Assembly: GCF_003666605.1 (NCBI RefSeq)
Contig: NZ_RCIV01000003.1
Coordinates: forward strand, 1-64,000
DNA from: Propionibacterium australiense
GTDB taxonomy: Bacteria; Actinomycetota; Actinomycetes; Propionibacteriales; Propionibacteriaceae
Direction of reading: 5' to 3'
DNA: 64,000 bases
A model generated the notes under the pieces. It had not been told where the DNA came from. It did not search any database and worked only from the letters and a program-made list of their open reading frames with translations. The position numbers were made by a program, and so were the translations under genes. Shown piece after piece: positions 1 to 32,352 of the stretch (its first letter is position 1; every line of letters begins with the position of its first letter).

Positions 1-69
1 CTTGGACTTCTGGACGACCCCTGGAACGACTTGTTCGGTGAACTCTGCACTGTATTTCGATGCCGACAT
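1..69 (-). pseudogene. IS3-type transposase orfA, 5' end only (cut by window edge)
   Basis: Reading leftward from an ATG at 69-67, the translation begins MSASKYSAEFTEQVV, which resembles the N-terminal helix-turn-helix start of IS3-family OrfA proteins. Only 23 codons lie in the window, so it cannot be said whether the gene is intact outside. The A+T-richer stretch at about 70-112 would hold the element's end, but the partner repeat is out of view. Confidence 0.55.
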
Positions 70-146
70 GATCTAATTCTACCTCACGATCATTTCACCC
101 ACTGTCCGAAAAACACCAAGCACTCCACCGACCCCCTGCACAAGTC

Positions 147-278
147 ATGGCCACACTGCGCAACCTCGCCATCAGCCTGATCCGCATGGCCTACCACAAC
201 ACACAATCCATCGCCTCGGCCACCCGAGCCATGACCCGAAAACCCACCAAAGCCATCAAACTCCTAACAACCCCCTAA
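147..278 (+). pseudogene. ISAs1-like transposase, C-terminal remnant
   Basis: A frame open from before position 72 to a TAA at 276-278 carries MATLRNLAISLIRMA, a sequence typical of the end of ISAs1/DDE transposases, followed by a basic tail. The catalytic part is missing, and the region upstream belongs to a different element. This is a decayed fragment rather than a gene. The family assignment rests on that single C-terminal motif. Confidence 0.5.
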
Positions 279-399
279 CCACCCACCAACTTTGCCGACC
301 CCCTGGGCACGCCCCATCGGCGCTCCCATTGTCCCGCGTCATGATTTTTGGCAGGCCGGTTGTGAGGGCATGATCGGCGTGTGATTCCAGGAGGCTGGG

Positions 400-717
400 A
401 TGGGTAGACCGCCGAAGTTTTCGCCGGAGACCAAGACGCGGATCGTGCTGGCCGTGCTCGCCGGCGAGGTGTCCGTGGCGGAGGCTGCGCGCAAGGAGAA
501 GGTTTCTGAGCAGTCGATCGGCCGGTGGAGAGCCGAGTTTCTCGAGGCCGGTAGATCCGCGATGGCGACCGGCCGTTCGAGGCCGTCGACGCGGGAGGAA
601 CAACTCGAGGCTCAGATCGAGGATCTGACCCAGGCGCTGGGTGAGGCCGCTGTCGAGCTCCGAGTGTGGAAGAAGTCAGCGGAGGGCAGGCTGGGCCCTT
701 CGAGGACCTCGAGGTGA
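400..717 (+). CDS. IS3-family transposase OrfA (helix-turn-helix subunit)
   Basis: A protein of 105 residues. The first ~50 residues form a transposase-type helix-turn-helix (FSPETKTRIVLAVLAGE, then EAARKEKVSEQSIGRWR). A heptad-like region follows (EEQLEAQIEDLTQAL) that would act as the leucine-zipper dimerisation segment. The gene overlaps OrfB, which lies in the -1 frame, as expected for IS3 elements that make an OrfAB fusion by programmed frameshifting. No A-rich slippery heptamer is obvious in the overlap, so the frameshift site is not assigned. Confidence 0.85.
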   Translation: MGRPPKFSPETKTRIVLAVLAGEVSVAEAARKEKVSEQSIGRWRAEFLEAGRSAMATGRSRPSTREEQLEAQIEDLTQALGEAAVELRVWKKSAEGRLGPSRTSR

Positions 718-1661
718 TTCGGGTCGAGTCCGGGATGTCGACCACGAGGTTCTGCCAGATGCTTGACATCCCGGAACGCTCGTGGCGACGCTGGCAATCG
801 AAAGCACGAGCAGGTCAGCCGGTGAAAGGGCCGTGGCCGGCACCTGCTCGAGACGCCCATCGCGACGCGGTGACGGCGATGGCGGCGACGCATCCGGCGT
901 GGGGGCACCGGAAGATCTGGGCCATGGTGCGCCATGACGGGCACAGGGTATCGCAGTCCACGGTCCTTCGGATCATGAGCGAGGAGGGCCTGCTACTCAA
1001 GGCTGACTACCAGCGAGAACGCCGACAGATGGCCAAACAACGCAAGGCCGCGTTCGCCGCCGCGCCAACAGGGCCGAACCAGGTGTGGCAATTCGATTTC
1101 TCGGAGTATGAGACCACCGGCGGGGGCACATGGCGCGTCGCCGGCCTCGTCGACTACTACTCGAAGTACGAGTTCGGCTGGCATTGGTCACCGACGGCGA
1201 ACCAGCATGACGCGATCACCGCCGTCGAACTCGCCCTCGCCGAGGCCGAACGCCTGCTCGGTGGTCCACGGCTGATCGATCACCTCACCGACCCGGACAC
1301 CGGCGAGGTCGTCCCCATCACGCTCGTCACCGACAACGGCGGCCCGTTCCGGTCTTTCAGGTTCGGTGCCTTCATCACCTCCAAGCCCGAGTTGCGGCAC
1401 GTGCGCACCCGAGTGAAGACCCCCGGGCAGAACGGCGTCCGCGAGCGCGCCTTCTGGTCGCTGAAGTACGAGCGGCTCTACCGCGAGCACATCGACGACG
1501 CCCTGGACCTCATCCGCGAATCCGACGCTTTCCGCGTTGAGTTCAATACCGAGCGACCGCACGAGCACCTGGCCTGGAACCGACCCGCCGATGTCCACAC
1601 CGGCCACGCCAACCCCACCATCCCCACCTTTCCCGAACCCAAAACCCTGCCAACAACTTGA
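666..1661 (+). CDS. IS3-family transposase OrfB (rve integrase core)
   Basis: The frame opens with GTG at 666; an ATG at 735 is an alternative start. The protein has the DDE catalytic triad of retroviral-type integrases: D in WQFDFSEYE, D in LVTDNGGPF and E in NGVRERAFWSLKYE, the last about 35 residues after the second D. The N-terminal part (HPAWGHRKIW, VSQSTVLRIM) is the HTH_21 region usual in OrfB. It catalyses strand transfer of the element, as OrfB alone or as an OrfAB fusion. No internal stop is seen, so it is probably active. Confidence 0.9.
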   Translation: MEEVSGGQAGPFEDLEVIRVESGMSTTRFCQMLDIPERSWRRWQSKARAGQPVKGPWPAPARDAHRDAVTAMAATHPAWGHRKIWAMVRHDGHRVSQSTVLRIMSEEGLLLKADYQRERRQMAKQRKAAFAAAPTGPNQVWQFDFSEYETTGGGTWRVAGLVDYYSKYEFGWHWSPTANQHDAITAVELALAEAERLLGGPRLIDHLTDPDTGEVVPITLVTDNGGPFRSFRFGAFITSKPELRHVRTRVKTPGQNGVRERAFWSLKYERLYREHIDDALDLIRESDAFRVEFNTERPHEHLAWNRPADVHTGHANPTIPTFPEPKTLPTT

Positions 1662-1685
1662 CGCGGGACACCATCACCTCATTGT

Positions 1686-4403
1686 TCAGCCGAGTCGGCG
1701 CCTGCGGTGCTTCATGAAGGCCGTCGCCGAGGATCCCGCCAGGGCCAGGCCGCCGGTGATCAGGAGAAGATCACGAGCTAGGCCGCCGCCAGTCAGGGGC
1801 AGGGAGGGCACCTCGACCTTCTTGTTGACGAAGGCATCGCTGAACTCGTACCGGCGGGTCAGAGGGTCGATCCTGAACTCGTACTCGTTCTTGTCGGTCG
1901 CGTAACCGAACGGCGCTCGTGTCTCGGTCAGGTAGAAGGAGACGGAGGGCGTGGCGGTCAGCCCCTTCACCAGGAACGAGCCCGGGGCAGGATCCTGATC
2001 CGCATAGGGCTCCTTGCTGCACTCGTCGGCGCTGTCCGCAACGCAGTCGGCCACATCGACGGAGATTCTGTCCGCCCCGCCTCTGATGTGCCAGACCGAG
2101 CCGGCCAGTGGCTCCCCGGAGTCATCATTCTTCTTCCACGCGACCGTGCCCTTGGGATAATTGATGATCTGCCCCTGGTCATTGACCAGCGGGATTCTCG
2201 GGTTGTTCCCGGTGCTGCGCGGTTCGAGTCTCACGCCCAGCGCGCCGACCCTGATCGAGGGGAAGACATAGGTGGCCGTGGAGAACTTGTCATAGCCCTC
2301 GGGCGCGTTCAGCTCCCTGATCCAGTAGTAGTACAGGCCGAGCCCATCGATCCTGAACTTGCCCGATTCGGGGTCCTGGTCGGCGTAGCCCCCTGGCTGG
2401 CAGTTGCCGGTGCAGTCCTCGATCGTCGTCCAGTTCTGGGTGTCGTAGCCGCCCTGGATCTGCCATGACGATCCGGCCAGCAGATTGCCATCGGCGTCGA
2501 CCTTCTCCCAGGAAATGGAGCCGCGGAGTTCGGCGGGGGTGCAGGCGTCGTTGTTCTCCGGGCCGTCGGCGTCGTCCTCCATGGTGACCTTGTTGTAGAG
2601 ACCCTTGGTCGGGTCCGGGTCGTCCCCATCGGCGCAGCTGCCGAGGGCATTCTGCCCGCTCGCGGTGATCGCATTGGGCTCCACCGCATAGCGCACGGTG
2701 ACCGTGTACTGCTTCTCCTGCCCCGGATCCAGGTAGTCGCCCGAGCTGAGTCGATAGGCGTCGCCGCCGAGTGGGGCAGCAGGCTGCCCGTCGACGTCGA
2801 CGCCACTCAGCCGGAAACCCTCGGTGGGGATGCCCGGATGGTCGATGATCTCGGGGAAGTCACCGCCGGCGGTGCCGATGTTGCGGGCAGTCACCGTGTA
2901 CTGACGTTGCAGCTCGGTGTCACCGCCGCTGATGATCGCCTTGTCCTCGGAGGTCTTCTTCTCGACGGTGAAGATGGGGATGTTCCCGGGGAATGTGTTG
3001 ACGGCGTAGATCTGCACGTCCGCGGGAGCGTTCTGGGCGAAGCTCAGGGTCGCCGTGTTGTCGCCGTTGTCGGTGACGGTTGCCCCGCTGTCGGGATTGG
3101 CCAAGGAGTACCGCACCGTCACTCCGGGGGGAAGGTCCTTCTCGCGGATGGTGCACGTGGCGGAGGACTTCGTCGATGCCTTGTTGGTGGTTTCCCCGAC
3201 TGCGATGGAGTGGAACGGCATGAAGTCGGTTCCGAGGCACTTGTACTCGAAGACGAACCCCTGGCCGGCCTCTGGCTGGCCGTCGCCGTCGGCGTACTTG
3301 ATGATCGAGAAGGTCACGGTCTCCCCGATTCCAGAGCCACCTGAGTGCGGCACCTCGGCATAGCCCTCGATGTGGTCCGTCGTCGTGCCCGGATCGAGCT
3401 GGCTGGCCTCCTGCGGGCTGTTGTCGACGTCGACCACATTGTGCAGTCGGTCAAAGTCCTTGTAGTCGGCTGTCAGCCGCCCATTGATGACGATCAGCAG
3501 TGTCTCGTTCCACCGTATGTATCGACCGAAACGATCCGGGTTGAAGGTGATGGTGACCCCGCCGTTCTCCTCCTGGCAGGACCAGCGGTCGGTATCGATG
3601 TAGTTCTCGTCATCGATGCTCGTATACGGCGAGGGAGTGCGATCGGCGATGGTCATATCGTCACAACTGAGCACATAACCGTCGCCGCCTTGGTCGTGGA
3701 TGACGGTCGGCTCGTAGACGTCGCCGGCGGTGGCGCTGTTGAGGCCGAGCCACCAGATGACGTTGGAGTCGACCTCGCTGACCGAGCCGTTCTTTCCGCT
3801 CTTCTGGAAGTAGCCTGGCGGGGGATCCTGCAACAGATGTGCGGGCAGGGTGCCGCCGCTGCCGTCACAGCCCTGGAAGTTCAGCTGATAATCTCCGGGG
3901 TCGGTTTCGGCCTGCCAGTCGACGCTGAAGTTCGCGTCTCCGGAGACATTGCTGTGGTTCTCGACATATTCCGTCAGGGTGAACTTCGTGGTCTGTCCGT
4001 CCCAGGTCACGTAGGCGATGTGCTCACCGGTGGGCGAATCCAGCCAGAACGGGGCGAGTGTCTGCTCGCGTCTGATGGGGGCGGGTATCTCCAAGGTGAA
4101 ATAGTCGCCTGCGCGCGATCCCTCCTTGACCGACCAGTGGAAGGTGACCGTGGCGACCCCACCGCGGCGGCTCTCGAAGACGCCGTTGCTGGTCACATTG
4201 GGCCCCTCGCGCCAGGCGAAGTTCGAGAACGAACCGGCACAGGACTGCTCCGCGACGGCGGGCTCTCGGTGTCCCGGGAGCACGGCGAGCATGGTCACGA
4301 GGAGCATGACGCCGAGTGCAGCAGTCAGGAGGCGACGCGCCGATCCGAGGATCCCGCCACGAGGACCGTGCCCGATGGCGAGCGAATCGGTTCCGACCCT
4401 CAT
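1686..4403 (-). CDS. LPXTG-type sortase-anchored surface adhesin/pilin-like protein
   Basis: A protein of 905 residues from the ATG at 4403. It has a long signal peptide (arginine-containing start, then a hydrophobic core LTAALGVMLLVTMLAVL). Its C-terminus is a cell-wall sorting signal: LPLTG, a hydrophobic helix and KHRRRRLG. The N-terminal ~400 residues look like an adhesin head of beta-sandwich domains. Near the C-terminus are two SpaA/prealbumin-type repeats, recognisable by W.K.D..G..LAGS.W starts and ends such as RELNAPEGYD and TETRAPFGYA, where the glutamate usually supports an isopeptide bond. Sortase would attach it to peptidoglycan; no sortase gene is in the window. An in-frame GTG at 4481 is possible, but the residues it would add are not protein-like. 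The start overlaps the stop of a short upstream ORF. Confidence 0.88.
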   Translation of the reverse strand: MRVGTDSLAIGHGPRGGILGSARRLLTAALGVMLLVTMLAVLPGHREPAVAEQSCAGSFSNFAWREGPNVTSNGVFESRRGGVATVTFHWSVKEGSRAGDYFTLEIPAPIRREQTLAPFWLDSPTGEHIAYVTWDGQTTKFTLTEYVENHSNVSGDANFSVDWQAETDPGDYQLNFQGCDGSGGTLPAHLLQDPPPGYFQKSGKNGSVSEVDSNVIWWLGLNSATAGDVYEPTVIHDQGGDGYVLSCDDMTIADRTPSPYTSIDDENYIDTDRWSCQEENGGVTITFNPDRFGRYIRWNETLLIVINGRLTADYKDFDRLHNVVDVDNSPQEASQLDPGTTTDHIEGYAEVPHSGGSGIGETVTFSIIKYADGDGQPEAGQGFVFEYKCLGTDFMPFHSIAVGETTNKASTKSSATCTIREKDLPPGVTVRYSLANPDSGATVTDNGDNTATLSFAQNAPADVQIYAVNTFPGNIPIFTVEKKTSEDKAIISGGDTELQRQYTVTARNIGTAGGDFPEIIDHPGIPTEGFRLSGVDVDGQPAAPLGGDAYRLSSGDYLDPGQEKQYTVTVRYAVEPNAITASGQNALGSCADGDDPDPTKGLYNKVTMEDDADGPENNDACTPAELRGSISWEKVDADGNLLAGSSWQIQGGYDTQNWTTIEDCTGNCQPGGYADQDPESGKFRIDGLGLYYYWIRELNAPEGYDKFSTATYVFPSIRVGALGVRLEPRSTGNNPRIPLVNDQGQIINYPKGTVAWKKNDDSGEPLAGSVWHIRGGADRISVDVADCVADSADECSKEPYADQDPAPGSFLVKGLTATPSVSFYLTETRAPFGYATDKNEYEFRIDPLTRRYEFSDAFVNKKVEVPSLPLTGGGLARDLLLITGGLALAGSSATAFMKHRRRRLG

Positions 4404-4501
4404 CGCCCACCCCCAGCAGATGCAGGTAAGGCGCTGATCGGTCTCCATCGCGAGTTCAGCCGGCAATGAGTTCGCAGGCACCTTGTCGATCCAGGGGGCA
4501 T
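4400..4501 (-). CDS. 33-codon upstream ORF translationally coupled to the surface-protein gene (putative leader peptide)
   Basis: Directly behind the strongest Shine-Dalgarno in this region (AAGGAGGA, eight bases before the ATG at 4501) is a 33-codon ORF. Its TGA overlaps the ATG of the surface protein as ATGA. The main gene itself has only a weak ribosome site, so translation would be delivered by coupling. The peptide (begins MPPGSTRCLRT) has no recognisable domain. The frames differ by one base, so a +1 insertion would fuse the two ORFs. It may be a leader peptide, or a relic of a shifted start. Confidence 0.5.
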   Translation of the reverse strand: MPPGSTRCLRTHCRLNSRWRPISALPASAGGGR

Positions 4502-4554
4502 GATGCTCGGTCCTCCTTCAGGAAAATTGAGCCTTCAATCGATCTGACCTACAA

Positions 4555-4583
4555 AGATTCCCTGAATCAACCCTGACTGTCAA
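4555..4583 (-). promoter_or_regulatory. Predicted promoter for the surface-protein gene
   Basis: A perfect -35 hexamer TTGACA (4583-4578) is followed, after exactly 17 bases, by GAATCT (4560-4555), a three-of-six match to the -10 consensus. It lies about 55 bp upstream of the uORF start in an A+T-rich pocket of an otherwise GC-rich sequence. Prediction from sequence only. Confidence 0.4.
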
Positions 4584-4768
4584 ATGATTTCGCCCCTGAT
4601 ACAGCAAAAACCTAAGAAAGTGTGGAATCCCTTATGAAACCCATAACATGACGCTGCGGACATCCCCTGACGGACACCGACATGTCACACGAATGGGCAC
4701 GCGTCAGCCGCTGGGGGCGTCCTTCGGCGATGAGACATGGCGACCGGTACCGCATCTGGGACGAGTGC

Positions 4769-4804
4769 AGAAGGGGCCCGGTGCTCACGCACCGGGCCCC
4801 TTCT
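4769..4804. terminator. Hairpin terminator downstream of sdhB
   Basis: A perfect 15-bp stem, AGAAGGGGCCCGGTG with its complement, and a six-base loop lie 27 bp beyond the sdhB stop. There is no clear U-tract, as is common in high-GC actinobacteria. It is symmetrical and could serve either strand. Confidence 0.75.
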
Positions 4805-4830
4805 CAGTTCAGATGATCGACGACTGTCGA

Positions 4831-5589
4831 TCAGGTGTCGCGTGACTGGCGGCCGCGCAGCACCGAGCGCCAGCGTTCCTTGTTCACCGTGGCGATGGCG
4901 GAAAGCGAGATGTCGGCGGGGCAGGACACCGCGCACTCGCCGTACACCGAGCAAGGACCGAAGTTCTCGTCGAGCATGGCGACCATCTTGCGGGCCCGGC
5001 GGCTGCGCTCCTGCTTGCCCTGCGGCATCTTGGCCAGGTGGGCGAGCTTGGCACCGGCGAACAGCATGGCCGCGCCGTTCGGGCAGGCCGCGACGCAGGC
5101 GCCGCAGCCGATGCAGATGGCGTAGTCCATGGCCTGCTCGGCCGTCAGGTGGTCCTGCGGCACGGTGTCGGCGTCCGGAGCGGTGCCGGTCATGACGTTG
5201 ACGTGACCGGCCGCCTCGACGAGCTCGTCGAGAGCCGTCCGGTCGACCGCGAGGTCGCGGATGACCGGGAAGGCCGCCGAGCGGAAGGGCTCGATGGTGA
5301 AGTGCGTGACCTCGGGGAACGAGCGCAGGTGCTGGCGGCAGGCCGGCGTGTTGGCCAGCGGGCCGTGCGGCTTGCCGTTGACGAGGAAGCCGCAGCAACC
5401 ACAGACGCCCTCGCGGCAGTCCGACTCGAAGACGATCGGCTCGCCGCCGGCCTCAACAATCTCGTCGTTGAGCTGGTCGAGCATCTCGAGGAGGCTGAGT
5501 TCGGGCTCGACGTCCTCCATGACGTGGGTCTCGAAGTAACCCTCGGCGTTGGGGCCGTCCTGACGCCAGATATCGAGTGTGACCTTCAT
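4831..5589 (-). CDS. sdhB: Succinate dehydrogenase/fumarate reductase iron-sulfur subunit
   Basis: A protein of 252 residues that carries electrons between the SdhA flavin and the membrane anchor. It contains the plant-type 2Fe-2S motif (CREGVCGCCGF then TPAC), a 4Fe-4S motif (CIGCGACVAACP) and the third-cluster motif (CSVYGECAVSCP). The ATG at 5589 overlaps the sdhA stop as ATGA, so the two are translationally coupled. The frame stays open upstream to 5691, but that part is sdhA in another frame. In propionibacteria this enzyme also runs as a fumarate reductase in propionate fermentation; the direction cannot be read from sequence. Confidence 0.95.
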   Translation of the reverse strand: MKVTLDIWRQDGPNAEGYFETHVMEDVEPELSLLEMLDQLNDEIVEAGGEPIVFESDCREGVCGCCGFLVNGKPHGPLANTPACRQHLRSFPEVTHFTIEPFRSAAFPVIRDLAVDRTALDELVEAAGHVNVMTGTAPDADTVPQDHLTAEQAMDYAICIGCGACVAACPNGAAMLFAGAKLAHLAKMPQGKQERSRRARKMVAMLDENFGPCSVYGECAVSCPADISLSAIATVNKERWRSVLRGRQSRDT

Positions 5590-7700
5590 CGGTAATCCCT
5601 CACCTGCAGATCGATCAGCGAGAAGTTGAGCGGCTCGCTGTGGCGGACATGGGTGCCATCGGGACGAGTCTCCCATGCGGAGACGGCGCACCAGTCGTCG
5701 TCGTTCCGCTTGGCCTCACCCTCGGGCGTGGCGTACTCGGTACGGAAGTGCGCGCCGGAGGACTCCCGGCGGTCCAGGGCGTCGAGGACCATGACCTCGG
5801 CCAGCTCCAGGAAGTCGGCCACCCGGCCGGCCTTCTCGAGTTCCTGGTTGAGCCGGTTGTCGGACCCGACGACCTTGACCTCGCGCCAGAACTGCTCGCG
5901 GAGCTCGCGGATCTCGCCGAGGGCCTTGACGAGACCTGCCTCGTCACGGCTCACGCCGCAGCCCTCGTAGAGGATGTCACCAAGACGGCGGTGGAACCAC
6001 TCGGGACGGCGGGTGCCCTTGTTGTTCATCAGCTTGTTGATGCGTTCCTCGACGTAGGCGATCGACTCGCGCACCTCGGGGGCCTCGGTCGACAGGACGG
6101 GCTTGCCGACGAAACCGGCGAGGTAGTTCGGCACCGAGAGCGGCAGGGTGAACCAGCCGTCGACGCTGGCCGACAGGAGCGAGTTGGCGCCGAGCCGGTT
6201 CGCGCCGTGGTAGTTGTTCGATGCCTCGCCGCCGACGAACAGACCGGGGATGTTGCTCATCTGGTCGAAGTCGACCCACAGGCCGCCCATGGCGAAGTGG
6301 GCGCCGGGGGCGATGCGCATCGGCACCTCGTACGGGTCCTCGCCCGTGCAGTCGAGGTACATGTCGAACAGGTTGCCGTAGCGCTCCTTGATCGTCGCCT
6401 TGCCCAGCCGGTTGATGGCGTCCTTGAAGTCCAGGTACACCGAGTTGTGCAGCGGGCCGACACCATGACCGGAATCGATCTGGGTGCGGGCGTTGCGGGA
6501 GGCCACGTCACGCGGCGTCAGGTTGCCGAACGAGGGGTACTTGCGCTCCAGGTAGTAGTCGCGCTCGTCCTCGGGGATCTCGTTGGCGGGACGGTCGTCG
6601 CCGGCCTTCTTCGGCACCCAGATGCGCCCGTCGTTGCGCAGCGACTCCGACATCAGCGTGGTCTTGGACTGCCAGTGCTGGCTGACCGGGAGAGCGGTCG
6701 GGTGGAACTGCAGGAAGCAGGGGCTGGCGAAGTAGGCGCCGTGGCGGTGCGCGCGCCAGGTCGCGGTGGCGTTGGAGCCCTTGGCCAGCGTCGACCAGTG
6801 GTAGACCGAGCCGTAGCCGCCGGTGCAGAGAACGACCACGTGGGCGGTCCAGCCGCGGATCTCACCGGTGAGCAGGTCGCGGGTGACGATGCCCTGTGCG
6901 CGGCCGTCGGCCACGACCAGGTCGAGCATCTCCATGCGGTTGTGCATCTTCACGGTGCCGGCGTCGATCTGCTCCTCGAGCGCCTGGTAGCAGGCGACCT
7001 CGAGCTGCTGACCGGTCTCGCCGCGCGTGTAGTAGGTACGCGAGACCTGCACGCCGCCGAACGAGCGGGTGGCCAGCTGGCCGCCGTACTCACGGGCGAA
7101 CGGGGCGCCGATGGCGTACATGTGGTCGATGACCTTGACGGACTCGATACCGAGACGAACGGCGTCGGCCTCTCGACCACGGTAGTCACCGCCCTTGACG
7201 GTGTCCTTGACGAAACGCTTGAGCGAGTCGCCGTCGATCTTGCGGGCCCGGGCCGAGTTGATGCCGCCCTGGGCTGCCACCGAGTGGGCGCGGCGCGGGG
7301 AGTCGTGGAAGGAGAAGCAGTCGACGTCGTAGCCGAGCTGCCCGAGGGTCGCCGCAGCACCGGAGCCGGACAGGCCGGTGCCGACGACGATGACCTTCAT
7401 CTTGCGGCGGTTCGCCGGGTTGACGAGCTTGTACTCGTCCTGGCGGCGCGCCCAGGCAGTCAGCGGGTCGCCCTCGGGGACCTTGGCGTCCAGCTCGGGA
7501 CCGACCTCGTAGCCGGCGGCCTTCTGGGCCGGGCCGAGGATGTCGCGGTTGCGCGGCGCGTCGTTGGGGCGGACGAAGGGCCGAGTGGAGGCACTGCCGG
7601 ACGGTGCGGGAGCAGCGGGGGCCGCGGCCGGAGCAGATGGCACCGTGACATCAAGCTTGTCCGCAACAGCGCCGATGACGTTCTTGATGATGTTGGTCAT
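5586..7700 (-). CDS. sdhA: Succinate dehydrogenase/fumarate reductase flavoprotein subunit
   Basis: A protein of 704 residues. The dinucleotide-binding motif VVGTGLSGSGAAATLG and the covalent-FAD region with its histidine (RRAHSVAAQGGINSA) mark the flavoprotein. It oxidises succinate or reduces fumarate. The ATG at 7700 overlaps the sdhC stop (ATGA). The FAD fold begins only near residue 107. The preceding part is an amphipathic start (MTNIIKNVIGAVADKL), an Ala/Pro-rich linker and a charged segment, which makes it longer than most SdhA proteins of this class (about 600-650 residues). The frame continues open to 8216 inside sdhC, but that is a shadow. Confidence 0.95.
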   Translation of the reverse strand: MTNIIKNVIGAVADKLDVTVPSAPAAAPAAPAPSGSASTRPFVRPNDAPRNRDILGPAQKAAGYEVGPELDAKVPEGDPLTAWARRQDEYKLVNPANRRKMKVIVVGTGLSGSGAAATLGQLGYDVDCFSFHDSPRRAHSVAAQGGINSARARKIDGDSLKRFVKDTVKGGDYRGREADAVRLGIESVKVIDHMYAIGAPFAREYGGQLATRSFGGVQVSRTYYTRGETGQQLEVACYQALEEQIDAGTVKMHNRMEMLDLVVADGRAQGIVTRDLLTGEIRGWTAHVVVLCTGGYGSVYHWSTLAKGSNATATWRAHRHGAYFASPCFLQFHPTALPVSQHWQSKTTLMSESLRNDGRIWVPKKAGDDRPANEIPEDERDYYLERKYPSFGNLTPRDVASRNARTQIDSGHGVGPLHNSVYLDFKDAINRLGKATIKERYGNLFDMYLDCTGEDPYEVPMRIAPGAHFAMGGLWVDFDQMSNIPGLFVGGEASNNYHGANRLGANSLLSASVDGWFTLPLSVPNYLAGFVGKPVLSTEAPEVRESIAYVEERINKLMNNKGTRRPEWFHRRLGDILYEGCGVSRDEAGLVKALGEIRELREQFWREVKVVGSDNRLNQELEKAGRVADFLELAEVMVLDALDRRESSGAHFRTEYATPEGEAKRNDDDWCAVSAWETRPDGTHVRHSEPLNFSLIDLQVRDYR

Positions 7701-8458
7701 GAGATCACCCCAGACAGGACGAGCATGGGCAGGGCGCCATTGCAGATCACGATGATCAGCGCAATGAGCAGGAAGGCGACGAGCCAGATCTTGCGCAGAC
7801 GCGGTCCGGTACCACCGAAGTCGTTGATGGCGTTCCATCCGCCCTGTCCGATGTGCAGGGCGGCGACGACCATGAGGAGCGTGTAGAAGGCCGCCATCCA
7901 CGGGCGGTTGAAGCTGAGGACGAGGTTCTCGTACGCGTGGGCGTGGACGACCATCTGGTTGCCCACCATCTCGTACGTGGCCTCCTCGAACTCTGAGACG
8001 GCGAGACCGCGGCCGATCGTGAGGTCGAGCAGGTGGACGATGACGAACGCGAGGAGCAGGACACCCTCGATGACCATGTACTTGGCGAACCACGCCTTCT
8101 TCTGCATGCCCTTGCGGGAGAAGCTGCCGCGAGCCCTGCGGCCGCGGAAGTGGATCGTCAGGCCGGCCCACACGTGCAGGACCAGGCTGGTCGTGAGCGC
8201 CAGGCGCATGACCCACAGCAGCCCCTCGTAGGGCAGGAACGGGAAGAGGAAGGTGCGCAGGAAGGCCGCGTAGGCGTTGTAGTCCTCGGCGCCAAGGAAC
8301 AGCTTGAGGTTACCGACCATGTGGACAAAGACGAAGAGAACGAAGATCGTGCCGGTGACAGCCATGATCAGCTTCAGGGTCACGTTCGACGGATGCTGGT
8401 TCAGCTTCTGCCGGACGACCGCGTCCCCCTGTCCTCGCGCCTTCTCGATGACGCTCAT
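7697..8458 (-). CDS. sdhC: Succinate dehydrogenase cytochrome b558 membrane anchor
   Basis: A protein of 253 residues with five hydrophobic segments, the single-subunit di-heme anchor of the Bacillus/Wolinella type. Candidate heme-ligand histidines sit in the helices (FVHMVGNLKLF, LVLHVWAGL, FVIVHLLDL, AALHIGQGG). It links SdhAB to menaquinone. First gene of the sdhCAB operon, which uses ATGA overlaps at both junctions; GGAGTAACTC precedes the ATG. No separate sdhD is present or needed in this class. Confidence 0.93.
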   Translation of the reverse strand: MSVIEKARGQGDAVVRQKLNQHPSNVTLKLIMAVTGTIFVLFVFVHMVGNLKLFLGAEDYNAYAAFLRTFLFPFLPYEGLLWVMRLALTTSLVLHVWAGLTIHFRGRRARGSFSRKGMQKKAWFAKYMVIEGVLLLAFVIVHLLDLTIGRGLAVSEFEEATYEMVGNQMVVHAHAYENLVLSFNRPWMAAFYTLLMVVAALHIGQGGWNAINDFGGTGPRLRKIWLVAFLLIALIIVICNGALPMLVLSGVIS

Positions 8459-8466
8459 GAGTTACT

Positions 8467-8486
8467 CCAATCGGGTGATGAATTGG
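8467..8486. promoter_or_regulatory. Inverted repeat upstream of sdhC (candidate operator)
   Basis: CCAAT and ATTGG arms separated by 10 bases lie in the 95-bp gap between the Nudix-type regulator and sdhC, immediately before the sdhC ribosome site. Its position fits an operator or an mRNA element, but the arms are short and chance occurrence is possible. Confidence 0.25.
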
Positions 8487-8553
8487 TCTTACCATATGCC
8501 CTTCACCGGGGGCTCGCAGCACTGGGGCGCACCTTTTGGGACGATTCGCAGAC

Positions 8554-9282
8554 CTATTTTGCCGAGCCGGTCGGATTACCGGGTCTGAGAACCGCAAACG
8601 GGTCCGTCACGCAGTATCTGGATGACCCAAATCTATAGGTGCGGGCGGGGCGCCCACCACCGACCCCCGGCGTCGTGAGGCGCCCCGTCGCGACGATCTG
8701 ACCACGCCTGCTCAGGACCCGCCCCAGGTTCGTCGCGTCGACGTCGTGACCGAGCACCTCGATGTACAGATCGCGCAGCTGGGCCAGCGTGAACTCGGCC
8801 GGAGCCAGCGCATAGGCGATGTTGGTGTACGACATCTTCGCCCGCACCCGGTCCAGCGCCTCGTCGACGATGCGGCGATGGTCGAAGGCCATGCGCCCGA
8901 GCCCCGCCAGCGGCACCCACTGCCCGGCCGAGCCCTCCCCCGGCTCCACGTCGGGCCCGACCAGTCCGACGTAGGCCGTGGCGATGGTGCGCTCGAAGGG
9001 ATCGCGCTCTGGTTCGGACAGCGACACGAGCTGTTCGCAGTGACCCAGCCGGGTCAGATCGAGTTTGGTCGCCAGGTGCCGCTCCAGGGCCGCGTCCATC
9101 GTCTCGGCGGCGTCGACCGGACCACTGGGCAGGGCCAACTCACCGGTGAACGGCTCACGGGCACGCCGCCAGGTCAGCACCTGCAGCCGACTCTGCCCCG
9201 GCGCCACGCGCAGGATCGCGGCGATGACCTCGTGACGGAACTTGGCCACGCCTCGGTCATCCCTGAACGGCTCACTCGACAC
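8554..9282 (-). CDS. NrtR-type transcriptional regulator (degenerate Nudix domain plus winged helix)
   Basis: A protein of 242 residues. Residues ~15-145 match a Nudix fold, and the C-terminal ~90 residues form a winged helix like that of NrtR regulators (FTLAQLRDLYIEVLGHDVDATNLGRVLSRRG). In the Nudix box the order G-x5-E-x7-R is kept (GPVDAAETMDAALER), but the metal-binding REUxEE is replaced by RHLATK, so hydrolysis is unlikely and ligand sensing is likely. NrtR proteins sense ADP-ribose and control NAD genes. Here the gene lies in line with and directly upstream of sdhCAB. The start is a GTG at 9282 without a clear ribosome site. Confidence 0.75.
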   Translation of the reverse strand: MSSEPFRDDRGVAKFRHEVIAAILRVAPGQSRLQVLTWRRAREPFTGELALPSGPVDAAETMDAALERHLATKLDLTRLGHCEQLVSLSEPERDPFERTIATAYVGLVGPDVEPGEGSAGQWVPLAGLGRMAFDHRRIVDEALDRVRAKMSYTNIAYALAPAEFTLAQLRDLYIEVLGHDVDATNLGRVLSRRGQIVATGRLTTPGVGGGRPARTYRFGSSRYCVTDPFAVLRPGNPTGSAK

Positions 9283-9392
9283 AAGCAGATGCTACCGGTC
9301 GCGCACCATCCAGGTGAGCAGATGGCGCGCGACCGGTACCGCCCGGTGATCAGGCACCAGCACCGGGCACGGGATCGCCCCTCGGGAGTTCC

Positions 9393-10781
<1,389 letters not shown>

Positions 10782-10976
10782 AGATGGCTCCTTCGTCACG
10801 CCGGATGACCGGCTGCGGGCCGATACCTGGCTGGCACCGACTGTGGGCCCACTGGCCCCGCCCCATCATGCCCGAATCACCCCCACGCCATGTCACCGCC
10901 TCACTGCACGGACGCAGGCCCACGCCCGACCATTTCCCGTCATGAATCCGGGCAGAATGAGGACAACCTAAGTTTT

Positions 10977-10991
10977 TGCGAATCATTTGCA
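10977..10991. promoter_or_regulatory. Fur/Zur-type 7-1-7 palindrome upstream of znuA
   Basis: TGCGAAT-C-ATTTGCA has six of seven arm positions paired and an A/T-rich core, the 7-1-7 layout of Fur-family operators. It lies 32 bp before the znuA start. The fourth gene of this cluster encodes a Fur-family repressor, so zinc-dependent autoregulation is the natural reading. No binding data are available here. Confidence 0.6.
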
Positions 10992-11022
10992 TTTTGGAGG
11001 CGATCGGTTCAGACTCGTTCTC

Positions 11023-12018
11023 ATGAAAGATCGACTCGTCCACGCTCCCCTGCGAGCCACCGTCATCGTCATGGCCGGGGCTCTCGCCCTGACCAGCTGC
11101 TCAACGAGTTCGCCGGGAGGCGGGACGGACACCGACACGGTCAGCGTCGTCGCCGCCTTCTACCCGTTCCAGTTCATTGCAGAACAAGTCGGAGGTGACC
11201 ATGTGCAGGTCTCCAATCTGACCCAGCCCGGCTCGGAGCCACACGATCTGGAACTCACGGCTCAGCAGACCGCCTCGATCGGCCAGGCCGATCTGGTGCT
11301 CTACCAGACCGGATTCCAGTCAGCGGTCGATGAAGCAGTGGCGCAGAACACCCCGAAGAGCGCGCTCGACGCAGCCTCGATCGTGGCCCTCCAAGATCCC
11401 GTCGGGTCCACCGAGTCGACAGACGAGGAGGACTCCGATGAAGACCACGACCACGGAGACCACGCAGATCACGACCACAGTCACCACGCAGATCACTTCG
11501 CCAAGGATCCTCACCAGTGGCTCGACCCCCAGAACATGATCACGATCACGAACGCCGTGCGCGACCGGCTCAGTGAGCTGGACACCGAGCATGCCGAGCG
11601 GTACGCGTCGAACGCCACGACGCTCGTCGAGAAGCTCCAGCAGCTCGACTCCGACTACTCGGTACTCGGCAGCTGCCAGCAGAAGAACTTCGTGACGACC
11701 CATGCCGCCTTCGGCTACCTGGCCAGCCGCTACGGTCTGAACCAGATCAGCATCGCCGGCCTGTCCCCCGACGAGGAGCCCTCACCCGCGCGCATCGCCG
11801 CAGTGCAGCAACTGGCCAGGGACAACGGCGTGACGACGATCTTCTACGAGGCCCTCGTCTCGGACAAGGTCGCCAGCTCCATCGCCGGTGACCTGGGCCT
11901 GACCACCGACGTGCTCGACCCCCTCGAGGGCATCACCGACGAGTCGAGGGGCAACGACTACATCGAGGTCATGCAGTCGAACCTGACCGCGCTCAAGACG
12001 GCGAACCAGTGCGGCTGA
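11023..12018 (+). CDS. znuA: Zinc ABC transporter substrate-binding lipoprotein
   Basis: A protein of 331 residues with a lipoprotein signal ending in the lipobox LTSC. It is a cluster 9 metal-binding protein: a metal-site histidine after the first strands (EPHDLELT), then the His/Asp-rich loop EDHDHGDHADHDHSHHADH, which is characteristic of zinc-specific rather than manganese-specific members, followed by DPHQWLDPQN. It captures zinc outside the membrane for ZnuBC. I chose the ATG at 11023, which gives a normal signal peptide; the frame opens earlier with a TTG inside the Fur box. Confidence 0.92.
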   Translation: MKDRLVHAPLRATVIVMAGALALTSCSTSSPGGGTDTDTVSVVAAFYPFQFIAEQVGGDHVQVSNLTQPGSEPHDLELTAQQTASIGQADLVLYQTGFQSAVDEAVAQNTPKSALDAASIVALQDPVGSTESTDEEDSDEDHDHGDHADHDHSHHADHFAKDPHQWLDPQNMITITNAVRDRLSELDTEHAERYASNATTLVEKLQQLDSDYSVLGSCQQKNFVTTHAAFGYLASRYGLNQISIAGLSPDEEPSPARIAAVQQLARDNGVTTIFYEALVSDKVASSIAGDLGLTTDVLDPLEGITDESRGNDYIEVMQSNLTALKTANQCG

Positions 12019-14684: not shown

Positions 14685-14730
14685 CGGTGACCGTGATGTC
14701 ACCGTGCTCTGCAGCGAAAGGATGACATCA
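14685..14730 (+). promoter_or_regulatory. Candidate riboswitch expression platform (two mutually exclusive hairpins)
   Basis: CGGTGAC (14685-14691) can pair with GTCACCG (14698-14704). Alternatively TGATGTCA (14694-14701) can pair with TGACATCA (14723-14730), which covers the spacer between AAAGGA and the ATG, including the A of the start codon. The two pairings share bases and exclude each other. That is the arrangement of a translational on/off switch. Inferred by eye; no folding energy was computed. Confidence 0.5.
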
Positions 14731-15629
14731 TGAGCGCCACGACCTGGCAACTCGACGAACCCCGCGAAGGCGGGTCGGGTTCCGCACCGTCCCTCCATCT
14801 CCTGCCGGCCACGCAGATGTCCCACCGCCTGGACAGCTATCTGCACGTCTGGCTCGCCACCCGCGCCGGAACCGTCGCCGACAAGACCCTCCGCACCGAT
14901 CAGGACCTGCTCCGCCTGATCCCGCAGTCCTGCCTGAGCCAGGACCCCCGCGCCCTCACCCAGCCGGCCGTGAGCCGGCTTCTCGCGCACTTCCGTTCCC
15001 GTGGTCTCAGCGAACTCTCGGTGCGTCGCTACCGCGCCAGCCTGTCCTCCTTCTTCAGCTGGCTGCGCAACCAGGGTGTCATCGACAGCTCGCCGATGCC
15101 CCAGCAGTCATCCGATCAGCCGGCCAGGCAGACCACCACGGCGATGCCGTTCACCGCAGCCGAGCTGCACGCGGCCTTCCGGCTGTGGCAGGCCCGGGAC
15201 CGCCGCCTCGCACTGGTCATGCTCGTCCTGGCCCACACCGGTCTGCGCTGGGCCGAGGCACGCGCCCTGCTCGTCTCGGACGTGCATCTGCGTGAGGGCC
15301 GTCTCATCGTGCGCCGGTCCATGCCCGAGGGCGTGAGTACTCGTGAGTTCAGTCCCGAGTTGATTCGCCGTGTGCCGCTGTCGAAGTGCGCGACCCGTGC
15401 GCTGGCCGAGCTCACTGCCGGGGCCCGCCCGGACCAGCTGGCCATGACGACCGACCGGGGCTGTCAGCTGCACCGCACCTCGGTGCTGCGCGCCCTGGAC
15501 TGGCCGCACACCGGGCAGGGCCGCCGCCTCGTCGACCTGCGTCACACCGCGGCCCAGCTGTGGCTCGACTGCGGTCACTCCCCCGCTCAGGTGCGCGGCT
15601 GGATGGGGCACAGCCTCATCACCGGCTGA
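14730..15629 (+). CDS. Tyrosine-recombinase-like protein lacking the catalytic tyrosine
   Basis: A protein of 299 residues. Residues ~30-120 are a SAM-like core-binding domain (SVRRYRASLSSFFSWLRNQG), and the C-terminal half is an integrase fold. The first arginine is kept (HTGLRWAEARAL), as are the second arginine and the late histidine (LRHTAAQLW, GWMGHS). The usual HxLR histidine is valine (LVDLRHT). The protein ends right after GHSLITG, where the nucleophilic tyrosine would follow some ten residues later. No tyrosine occurs in the next codons in any frame. A good ribosome site (GAAAGGATG) and a hairpin close behind argue for an expressed gene. It should bind DNA but not cut it. It is preceded by a cobalamin riboswitch. 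Confidence 0.8.
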   Translation: MSATTWQLDEPREGGSGSAPSLHLLPATQMSHRLDSYLHVWLATRAGTVADKTLRTDQDLLRLIPQSCLSQDPRALTQPAVSRLLAHFRSRGLSELSVRRYRASLSSFFSWLRNQGVIDSSPMPQQSSDQPARQTTTAMPFTAAELHAAFRLWQARDRRLALVMLVLAHTGLRWAEARALLVSDVHLREGRLIVRRSMPEGVSTREFSPELIRRVPLSKCATRALAELTAGARPDQLAMTTDRGCQLHRTSVLRALDWPHTGQGRRLVDLRHTAAQLWLDCGHSPAQVRGWMGHSLITG

Positions 15630-31388: not shown

Positions 31389-31982
31389 TTATTTCTTCTC
31401 GGCCTGCGGCTTGTCGTCGCCGGCAGACGTCTTCCTCTGACTGGACGAACGGCTGCTCGTCCGCCTGGCGCCGTCCTTGCCCGCCGCAGCAGGCGACTTC
31501 TTCACATCGGCGGCCACCTCGTGCTCGGCGGCCTGCTCCGATGGCGCCTGGCCGGTCTCGGCGGCCTGTTCCGGTTCGGCAGCAGGCTCCGGCCCGGCGG
31601 GCGGTGTGCTCTCGGCAGCAGGCTCCGGCCCAGCCGCCTGCTTGCTCTTGGCGGCCTGCTTGGCGGCCTGGTCCACCGAGGTGGGGGCACCGAGGCCGAC
31701 GGTGGCCGGGGACAGCACGACGCCGCCGAGCTGCGGATTGGGACGCGGGATCACCGAGACAGCGAAGACCGTCGACACCCGTGCGGCGGCCGCCCGGGCA
31801 GCGGCGATGGCCGACTGGACGGAGGAGACCTGGCCCTCGATCTTGACGGTGACCATGCCGGCCCCGTCCGTGGTCTCGTAGCCGATGAGCCGGACGTCCG
31901 CGGCCTTCACCGCGACATCGGCGGCCTCGATGGCCGCCGGGAGACCGAGGACCTCGATCTCGCCCAGGGCGTTCGTGAGCAT
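31389..31982 (-). CDS. pduK: PduK/EutK-like shell protein with long disordered, basic C-terminal tail
   Basis: A protein of 197 residues. Residues 1-~92 are a BMC domain (ALGEIEVLGLPAAIEAADVA, DGAGMVTVKIEGQVSSV, SVIPRPNPQLGG). The rest is a low-complexity Ala/Glu/Pro stretch with repeated GPEPAAE units, ending in an Arg/Ser/Lys-rich tip (ARRTSSRSSSQRKTSAG). Salmonella PduK carries an iron-sulfur tail instead, and E. coli EutK a helix-turn-helix; neither is seen here. The tip could bind nucleic acid or other lumen proteins. ATG 31982 sits behind GAAGGAG. Confidence 0.72.
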   Translation of the reverse strand: MLTNALGEIEVLGLPAAIEAADVAVKAADVRLIGYETTDGAGMVTVKIEGQVSSVQSAIAAARAAAARVSTVFAVSVIPRPNPQLGGVVLSPATVGLGAPTSVDQAAKQAAKSKQAAGPEPAAESTPPAGPEPAAEPEQAAETGQAPSEQAAEHEVAADVKKSPAAAGKDGARRTSSRSSSQRKTSAGDDKPQAEKK

Positions 31983-31992
31983 TGTGTCTCCT

Positions 31993-32352
31993 TCACTCAT
32001 TGGTGACCACGATCAGTGGCATGCGTTTGACGAGTCGTGCCGCATTCGCGCCCATGTCGCGGACGTGTGTCCGGGCCGCGTCGACGTCGAGCGTGATGTA
32101 GGGCCTGGCGGGGTCGAGTTTCTCCGTCGTGATGACGATCTGCCGGGTGCTGAGGCCGACGCCCACACCCAGCCGGGAGGCCAGCGCGGCCTCGTGGGCC
32201 AGCACGGCGGCGTCGGAGGACTCGCCGCGTGTCACCAGGTGCGGGACGCCCTCCTCCTCCATGCCGAAGCCGATCTGCTCGATGATCTCGGCGCTCGCGC
32301 TCGAACTGGCTCTGATGCCGATGGTCGGCCTCTCCTGCTCGACGGGTCTCAT
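31993..32352 (-). CDS. pduH: Diol dehydratase reactivase small subunit PduH
   Basis: A protein of 119 residues resembling the beta subunit of diol dehydratase (IGFGMEEEGVPHLVTRG, VGVGLSTRQIVITTEKLDP), as known for DdrB/PduH, which swaps with the dehydratase subunit during reactivation. The start overlaps the pduG stop as ATGA. The C-terminus overlaps an alternative start of pduK (ATG 32000). Confidence 0.93.
   Translation of the reverse strand: MRPVEQERPTIGIRASSSASAEIIEQIGFGMEEEGVPHLVTRGESSDAAVLAHEAALASRLGVGVGLSTRQIVITTEKLDPARPYITLDVDAARTHVRDMGANAARLVKRMPLIVVTNE

Follow-up and report, generated by a model that had tools for sequence, protein, structure and literature searches.

Short upstream open reading frames (uORFs) reportedly control genes in the B12-riboswitch systems of M. 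tuberculosis, and a Mg2+ transporter gene of Salmonella is likewise said to be under the control of a uORF. A second described arrangement is the ATGA gene pair with a Shine-Dalgarno (SD) sequence inside the upstream frame. In the results excerpted from one study of such pairs, 13 of the 14 tested were strictly coupled, removal of the SD sequence lowered reinitiation in 4 of 5 Escherichia coli pairs, and de novo initiation and coupling were considered able to coexist (PMC6728339). In the excerpted part of a Cutibacterium acnes survey, repeats of >6 bases were sought, with tract lengths that varied, e.g., from 6 to 12 and from 8 to 13, and one promoter tract varied between 5 and 7 (PMC4746626). 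Here, we describe the leader of a surface adhesin gene in the first 64,000 bases of contig C23 (the whole stretch of DNA analyzed, referred to as the window), which is part of a 3.0-Mb genome in 63 contigs. The arrangement is of an ordinary kind, and the start site of the adhesin is ambiguous.

Layout of the leader and the adhesin gene

Table 1. Positions of the leader and adhesin features in the window
Feature	Position	Strand	Details
LPXTG-anchored adhesin, 905 aa	1686..4403	-	Signal peptide, Big_8, DUF5979, two SpaA domains, LPLTG tail
LPLTG sorting motif	1788..1802	-	Read from the translation
ATGA stop/start overlap	4400..4403	-	uORF TGA (4402-4400) over adhesin ATG (4403-4401)
uORF, 33 codons plus TGA (MPPGSTRCLRTHCRLNSRWRPISALPASAGGGR)	4400..4501	-	ATG at 4501
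Open adhesin-frame extension upstream of ATG 4403	4404..4499	-	Contains GTG 4481, TTG 4466, ATG 4448
GGGGGTG, SD-like, for adhesin ATG 4403, within the uORF 3' end	4408..4414	-	-12.9 kcal/mol
SD-like AAGGAGGA preceding uORF ATG 4501	4511..4518	-	-11.9 kcal/mol with the 16S tail
Strong hairpin 3' of sdhB	4766..4808	-	-38.2 kcal/mol, z = -7.04; without a T run

The original prediction placed a uORF directly ahead of the adhesin, with its stop codon overlapping the adhesin ATG; this layout and the ATGA junction were confirmed on the minus strand (Table 1). Because 98 bases separate the two ATGs, a one-base gain would, as had been proposed, bring the uORF and the adhesin into the same frame. The adhesin frame is intact from ATG 4403 and remains open upstream as far as GTG 4481.

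Identification of the product as a sortase-anchored adhesin was well founded, given its SpaA/Ig-like domains, C-terminal LPLTG motif, hydrophobic segment, and positive tail. Two SpaA stretches (54.5 bits; cutoff, 23.1), Big_8 (47 bits; cutoff, 22.9), and DUF5979 all exceeded their Pfam cutoffs. The signal peptide starting at 4403 (a hydrophobic core followed by AVA-EQS) was recognized by eye, as was the LPLTG tail. Two sortase matches were found in the same genome, both on contigs other than that of the adhesin. A cluster elsewhere in the genome (L045, 1895-7371, minus strand) contains one sortase and two more LPXTG proteins (tails read by eye) and is probably a pilus operon; the adhesin leader had no significant similarity to this cluster.

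The adhesin is probably transcribed separately from the sdh genes, because a strong hairpin follows sdhB (Table 1). A hairpin-like sequence with different bases is also seen after sdhB in the alignment of P. acidifaciens (by eye). A promoter and terminator scan of positions 4350 to 4900 returned none, and a TTGACA sequence was noticed by eye at approximately 4583-4578. On the other side of the gene, two overlapping plus-strand ORFs at 400-1661, which carry HTH_Tnp_1 and rve/HTH_21 domains and which we take to be an IS3-like transposase pair, end approximately 25 bases from the adhesin stop codon. DNA similarity to P. acidifaciens ends near position 1673.

Ribosome sites, codon usage, and RNA structure of the leader

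Each ribosome site was scored by the calculated energy of its duplex with the presumed 16S tail sequence. The uORF had been credited with the only strong ribosome site. This has to be revised, since the GGGGGTG site of ATG 4403 is, by this calculation, slightly the stronger of the two (-12.9 versus -11.9 kcal/mol for ATG 4501). Among the 1,810 ATGs on both strands of the window, 13 reach -11.9 kcal/mol and 2 reach -12.9 kcal/mol, and the median was -7.4 kcal/mol for 35 long ORFs when the best in-frame start of each was taken. The other possible adhesin starts, TTG 4466, GTG 4481, and ATG 4448, scored -6.2, -3.1, and -2.2 kcal/mol, respectively. The 35-ORF set, and the 34-ORF set used below for codon scores, were chosen by hand among 38 ORFs that had been filtered on base composition. 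Neither set includes the adhesin or the ORFs at 14730-15629 and 31389-32000, and the 34-ORF set also lacks the transposase ORF.

The ATGA overlap by itself is cheap in the GC-rich DNA of the window, and strong sites are not. ATGA occurs 578 times on the two strands, and 60 of these occurrences close an upstream ATG ORF of 10 to 60 codons. A site of -10 kcal/mol or better precedes 4 of these 60 ORFs, and only at the present locus does the downstream ATG also have a strong site (-2.3 to -3.1 kcal/mol at the other three).

The adhesin ribosome site sits in the same GGGGG run for which slippage had been proposed. We regard a phase switch based on such slippage as highly improbable. A one-base change would indeed shift the frame relation between the uORF and the adhesin, but the run has only five bases, is set among 48 G runs of 5 to 6 bases on the plus strand of the window (beside 72 C runs), and lies in the adhesin's own ribosome site. 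The suggested switch in surface display finds little support, since five-base G runs are common here and the C. acnes survey sought repeats of >6 bases.

The codon usage of the uORF is noncoding and typical for out-of-frame DNA. Its score was -1.03 bits per codon; scores as low were found for 0.08% of 1,221 in-frame pieces, and scores as high were found for 58% of 6,105 wrong-frame pieces (reverse frames included). Over the first 32 codons, 1 of 34 long ORFs scored as low, in a comparison that used longest-ORF starts, some of which are wrong. The adhesin frame over the same region (4499-4404) scored -0.007 per codon, toward the lower end of the coding range: 3.9% of in-frame pieces scored as low or lower, and 14.5% of the wrong-frame pieces scored as high or higher. 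This score was considered as proof of an N-terminal extension and rejected; it appeared strong against forward wrong frames alone and became ambiguous once the reverse frames were added, because 14.5% of the pieces then scored as high.

These scores bear on a second reading, in which the adhesin is N-terminally extended and starts at GTG 4481 or at another in-frame start upstream of 4403, the uORF being noise. The open frame and the codon score of the extension are consistent with a longer protein, as is the matching frame in P. acidifaciens, which is also coding-like (0.243) and in which GTG 4481 and its neighbors align. Against this, GTG 4481 is nearly devoid of a ribosome site, 14.5% of the wrong-frame pieces score as high as the extension, and the signal peptide would be approximately 77 residues long. 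We consider this reading unlikely.

The leader RNA folded no better than shuffled sequences (z = 0.29). In a 41-base piece around the GGGGGTG site, bases upstream of the site pair with it at -12.8 kcal/mol, a value reached by 24 of 200 shuffles. Masking of the adhesin ribosome site by a fold is possible and not special, and the leader z score lends it weak support.

A regulatory leader peptide, in which stalling or attenuation at particular uORF codons would control the adhesin, had also been suggested. The position of the uORF and its own ribosome site would suit such a role, but the proposal is very unlikely in view of the noncoding codon usage, the lack of a run of codons for a single amino acid (by eye), and the 3' part of the uORF, which is not kept in the P. 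acidifaciens orthologue, a pseudogene. Of the marks of an attenuator or riboswitch, neither an unusually stable fold of the leader nor an Rfam family (no match in positions 1 to 12,000) was found.

The P. acidifaciens orthologue and the upstream ATG

The sdhB gene (4831-5691, minus strand) shares 93 to 94% identity with its P. acidifaciens DSM 21887 counterpart, which makes the host a Propionibacterium near this species, and the two genes align without gaps over the part shown. The sole adhesin orthologue found lies at the same place beside sdhB in this strain (G002), with an identical sequence in L049. Relative to the window gene, the P. acidifaciens gene (L021, approximately 2369-5154, minus strand) has 11 single-base gaps, longer gaps, and one in-frame stop; judged from its sequence, it is a decayed pseudogene. 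In the shared part, substitutions per codon position of the adhesin frame were 0.107, 0.109, and 0.196. This third-position enrichment suggests past selection on the adhesin frame.

The orthologue was recovered in a search of 57 genomes, of which 10, including the source genome, matched somewhere and P. acidifaciens alone matched over most of the adhesin. The N-terminal 368 residues matched 4 of 198 family genomes (the source genome, P. acidifaciens, and two weak matches). Whole-adhesin scans of genome contigs and viral contigs returned 12 and 2 pattern stretches, respectively, and no relatives. No intact adhesin orthologue emerged from the contig scans or from the 57-genome and 198-genome searches. 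A leader DNA search against four genomes of the genus did not recover the P. acidifaciens leader, which was located through the protein match and the adjoining sdhB gene.

The P. acidifaciens leader retains an ATG that matches ATG 4501, with a weaker site (-7.1 kcal/mol). The first codons of the uORF can be aligned with the pseudogene, and its 3' part cannot. A stretch of approximately 95 bases, including ATG 4403, its ribosome site, and the ATGA junction, is absent from the P. acidifaciens alignment; its edges vary with the aligner, and other placements were obtained. The stretch was either gained in the lineage of the window or lost in P. acidifaciens, and conservation of ATG 4403 and the junction cannot be shown, because both lie within it.

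In the leader DNA search, the best nonself match was a 60-base stretch of the same genome (C45:52681-52740; E value, 2.1e-5). It corresponds to approximately 56 bases at the adhesin start (4352-4407, minus strand), which are 80% identical to this stretch, antisense of a dehydrogenase-like gene (E values, 2.1e-5 and 5.2e-6), and fall inside the stretch absent from P. acidifaciens. The match could be an old captured fragment that supplied a new start, or a chance product of GC-rich DNA.

The adhesin frame appears coding-like from approximately position 4500 onward in both the window and P. acidifaciens, and in the two species the upstream ATG is displaced from this frame by the same offset. Where the leaders align at their beginning, about 4 of 7 changes counted by eye fell on third positions of the uORF, which points in the opposite direction, although such a small number carries no weight. 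The coding-like frames are relevant to a third reading, in which ATG 4501 and its SD-like site were the original adhesin start, the frame from there to the signal peptide was lost by mutation or assembly error, and the gene is decaying or expressed from a secondary start only. In its favor, the ATG behind the classical AAGGAGG site opens a frame with no gene in it, the gene in P. acidifaciens has already been disrupted, and an IS-like transposase pair lies just beyond the 3' end of the gene. This reading is at odds with the strong site that ATG 4403 has of its own, with the intact 905-residue frame, and with the identical offset, which makes a sequencing error in one assembly unlikely. We rate it as possible, ahead of the extended protein and behind a start at ATG 4403. 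An annotation artifact, suggested at the outset, is likewise possible.

Production of the adhesin from ATG 4501 through ribosomal frameshifting (-1) in the earliest codons would explain both the coding-like adhesin frame and the equal offset. It is nevertheless highly doubtful, since a classical slippery pattern at the early leader codons is present in P. acidifaciens and absent from the window (by eye).

Start of the adhesin and comparison with known systems

With moderate confidence, we favor a start at ATG 4403 with reinitiation help from the uORF. Strong sites at both ATGs and an intact adhesin with a signal peptide, domains, and an LPLTG tail argue for this reading, as do the third-position enrichment of substitutions, the noncoding codon usage of the uORF, and the upstream ATG kept in P. 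acidifaciens. The length of the signal peptide from ATG 4403 (approximately 51 residues), the lack of ATG 4403 and the junction in the P. acidifaciens alignment, and the coding scores of the extension in the window (low-range) and in P. acidifaciens count against it. The adhesin would be translated from its own GGGGGTG site inside the uORF 3' end, and ribosomes that start at ATG 4501 would read 33 codons, stop at the ATGA, and partly restart at ATG 4403. Translation of the uORF may also unfold GC-rich structure around the GGGGGTG site. The uORF peptide itself would be functionless, and ATG 4501 probably marks an earlier or alternative 5' end of the adhesin gene. The two sites, their overlap, the open adhesin frame, the noncoding codon usage of the uORF, and the matching ATG in P. 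acidifaciens are observed; the use of both starts, their coupling, and the greater age of ATG 4501 are inferred. The arrangement resembles a known type of gene start, either left over or coupled, and does not resemble an on/off switch. If the coupling is real, the locus would add another example of surface adhesin output governed by a short translated leader and would warn that start codons assigned automatically in such genes can be misplaced by 26 residues. If instead the start is being lost, the window and P. acidifaciens would show a single adhesin locus in an earlier and a later phase of decay.

The adhesin resembles SpaA-domain LPXTG surface proteins in its SpaA score and LPLTG tail and, at 36.2 bits, scores short of the cutoff for the SpaH/EbpB major-pilin model (NF033902; cutoff, 95). 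Like the uORFs of the M. tuberculosis B12-riboswitch and Salmonella Mg2+ transporter systems, the present uORF is a short ORF ahead of a gene; unlike them, it lies in a leader with no Rfam riboswitch match, special fold, or known signal. The C. acnes proteins with variable tracts, as far as the excerpted survey describes them (PMC4746626), share with the adhesin a related genus, a surface location, and a G run near the start; the run here has five bases, short of the long simple tract of homopolymer phase variation, and was seen in one strain. The ATGA termination-reinitiation pairs covered by the excerpted study (PMC6728339) come closest. As in those pairs, the stop and start codons overlap by 4 bases on one strand, and an SD sequence lies in the end of the upstream frame, so that coupling of this known kind is plausible by analogy; the difference is that at this locus a short ORF of noncoding codon usage takes the place of an upstream gene, and its coupling to the adhesin is predicted.
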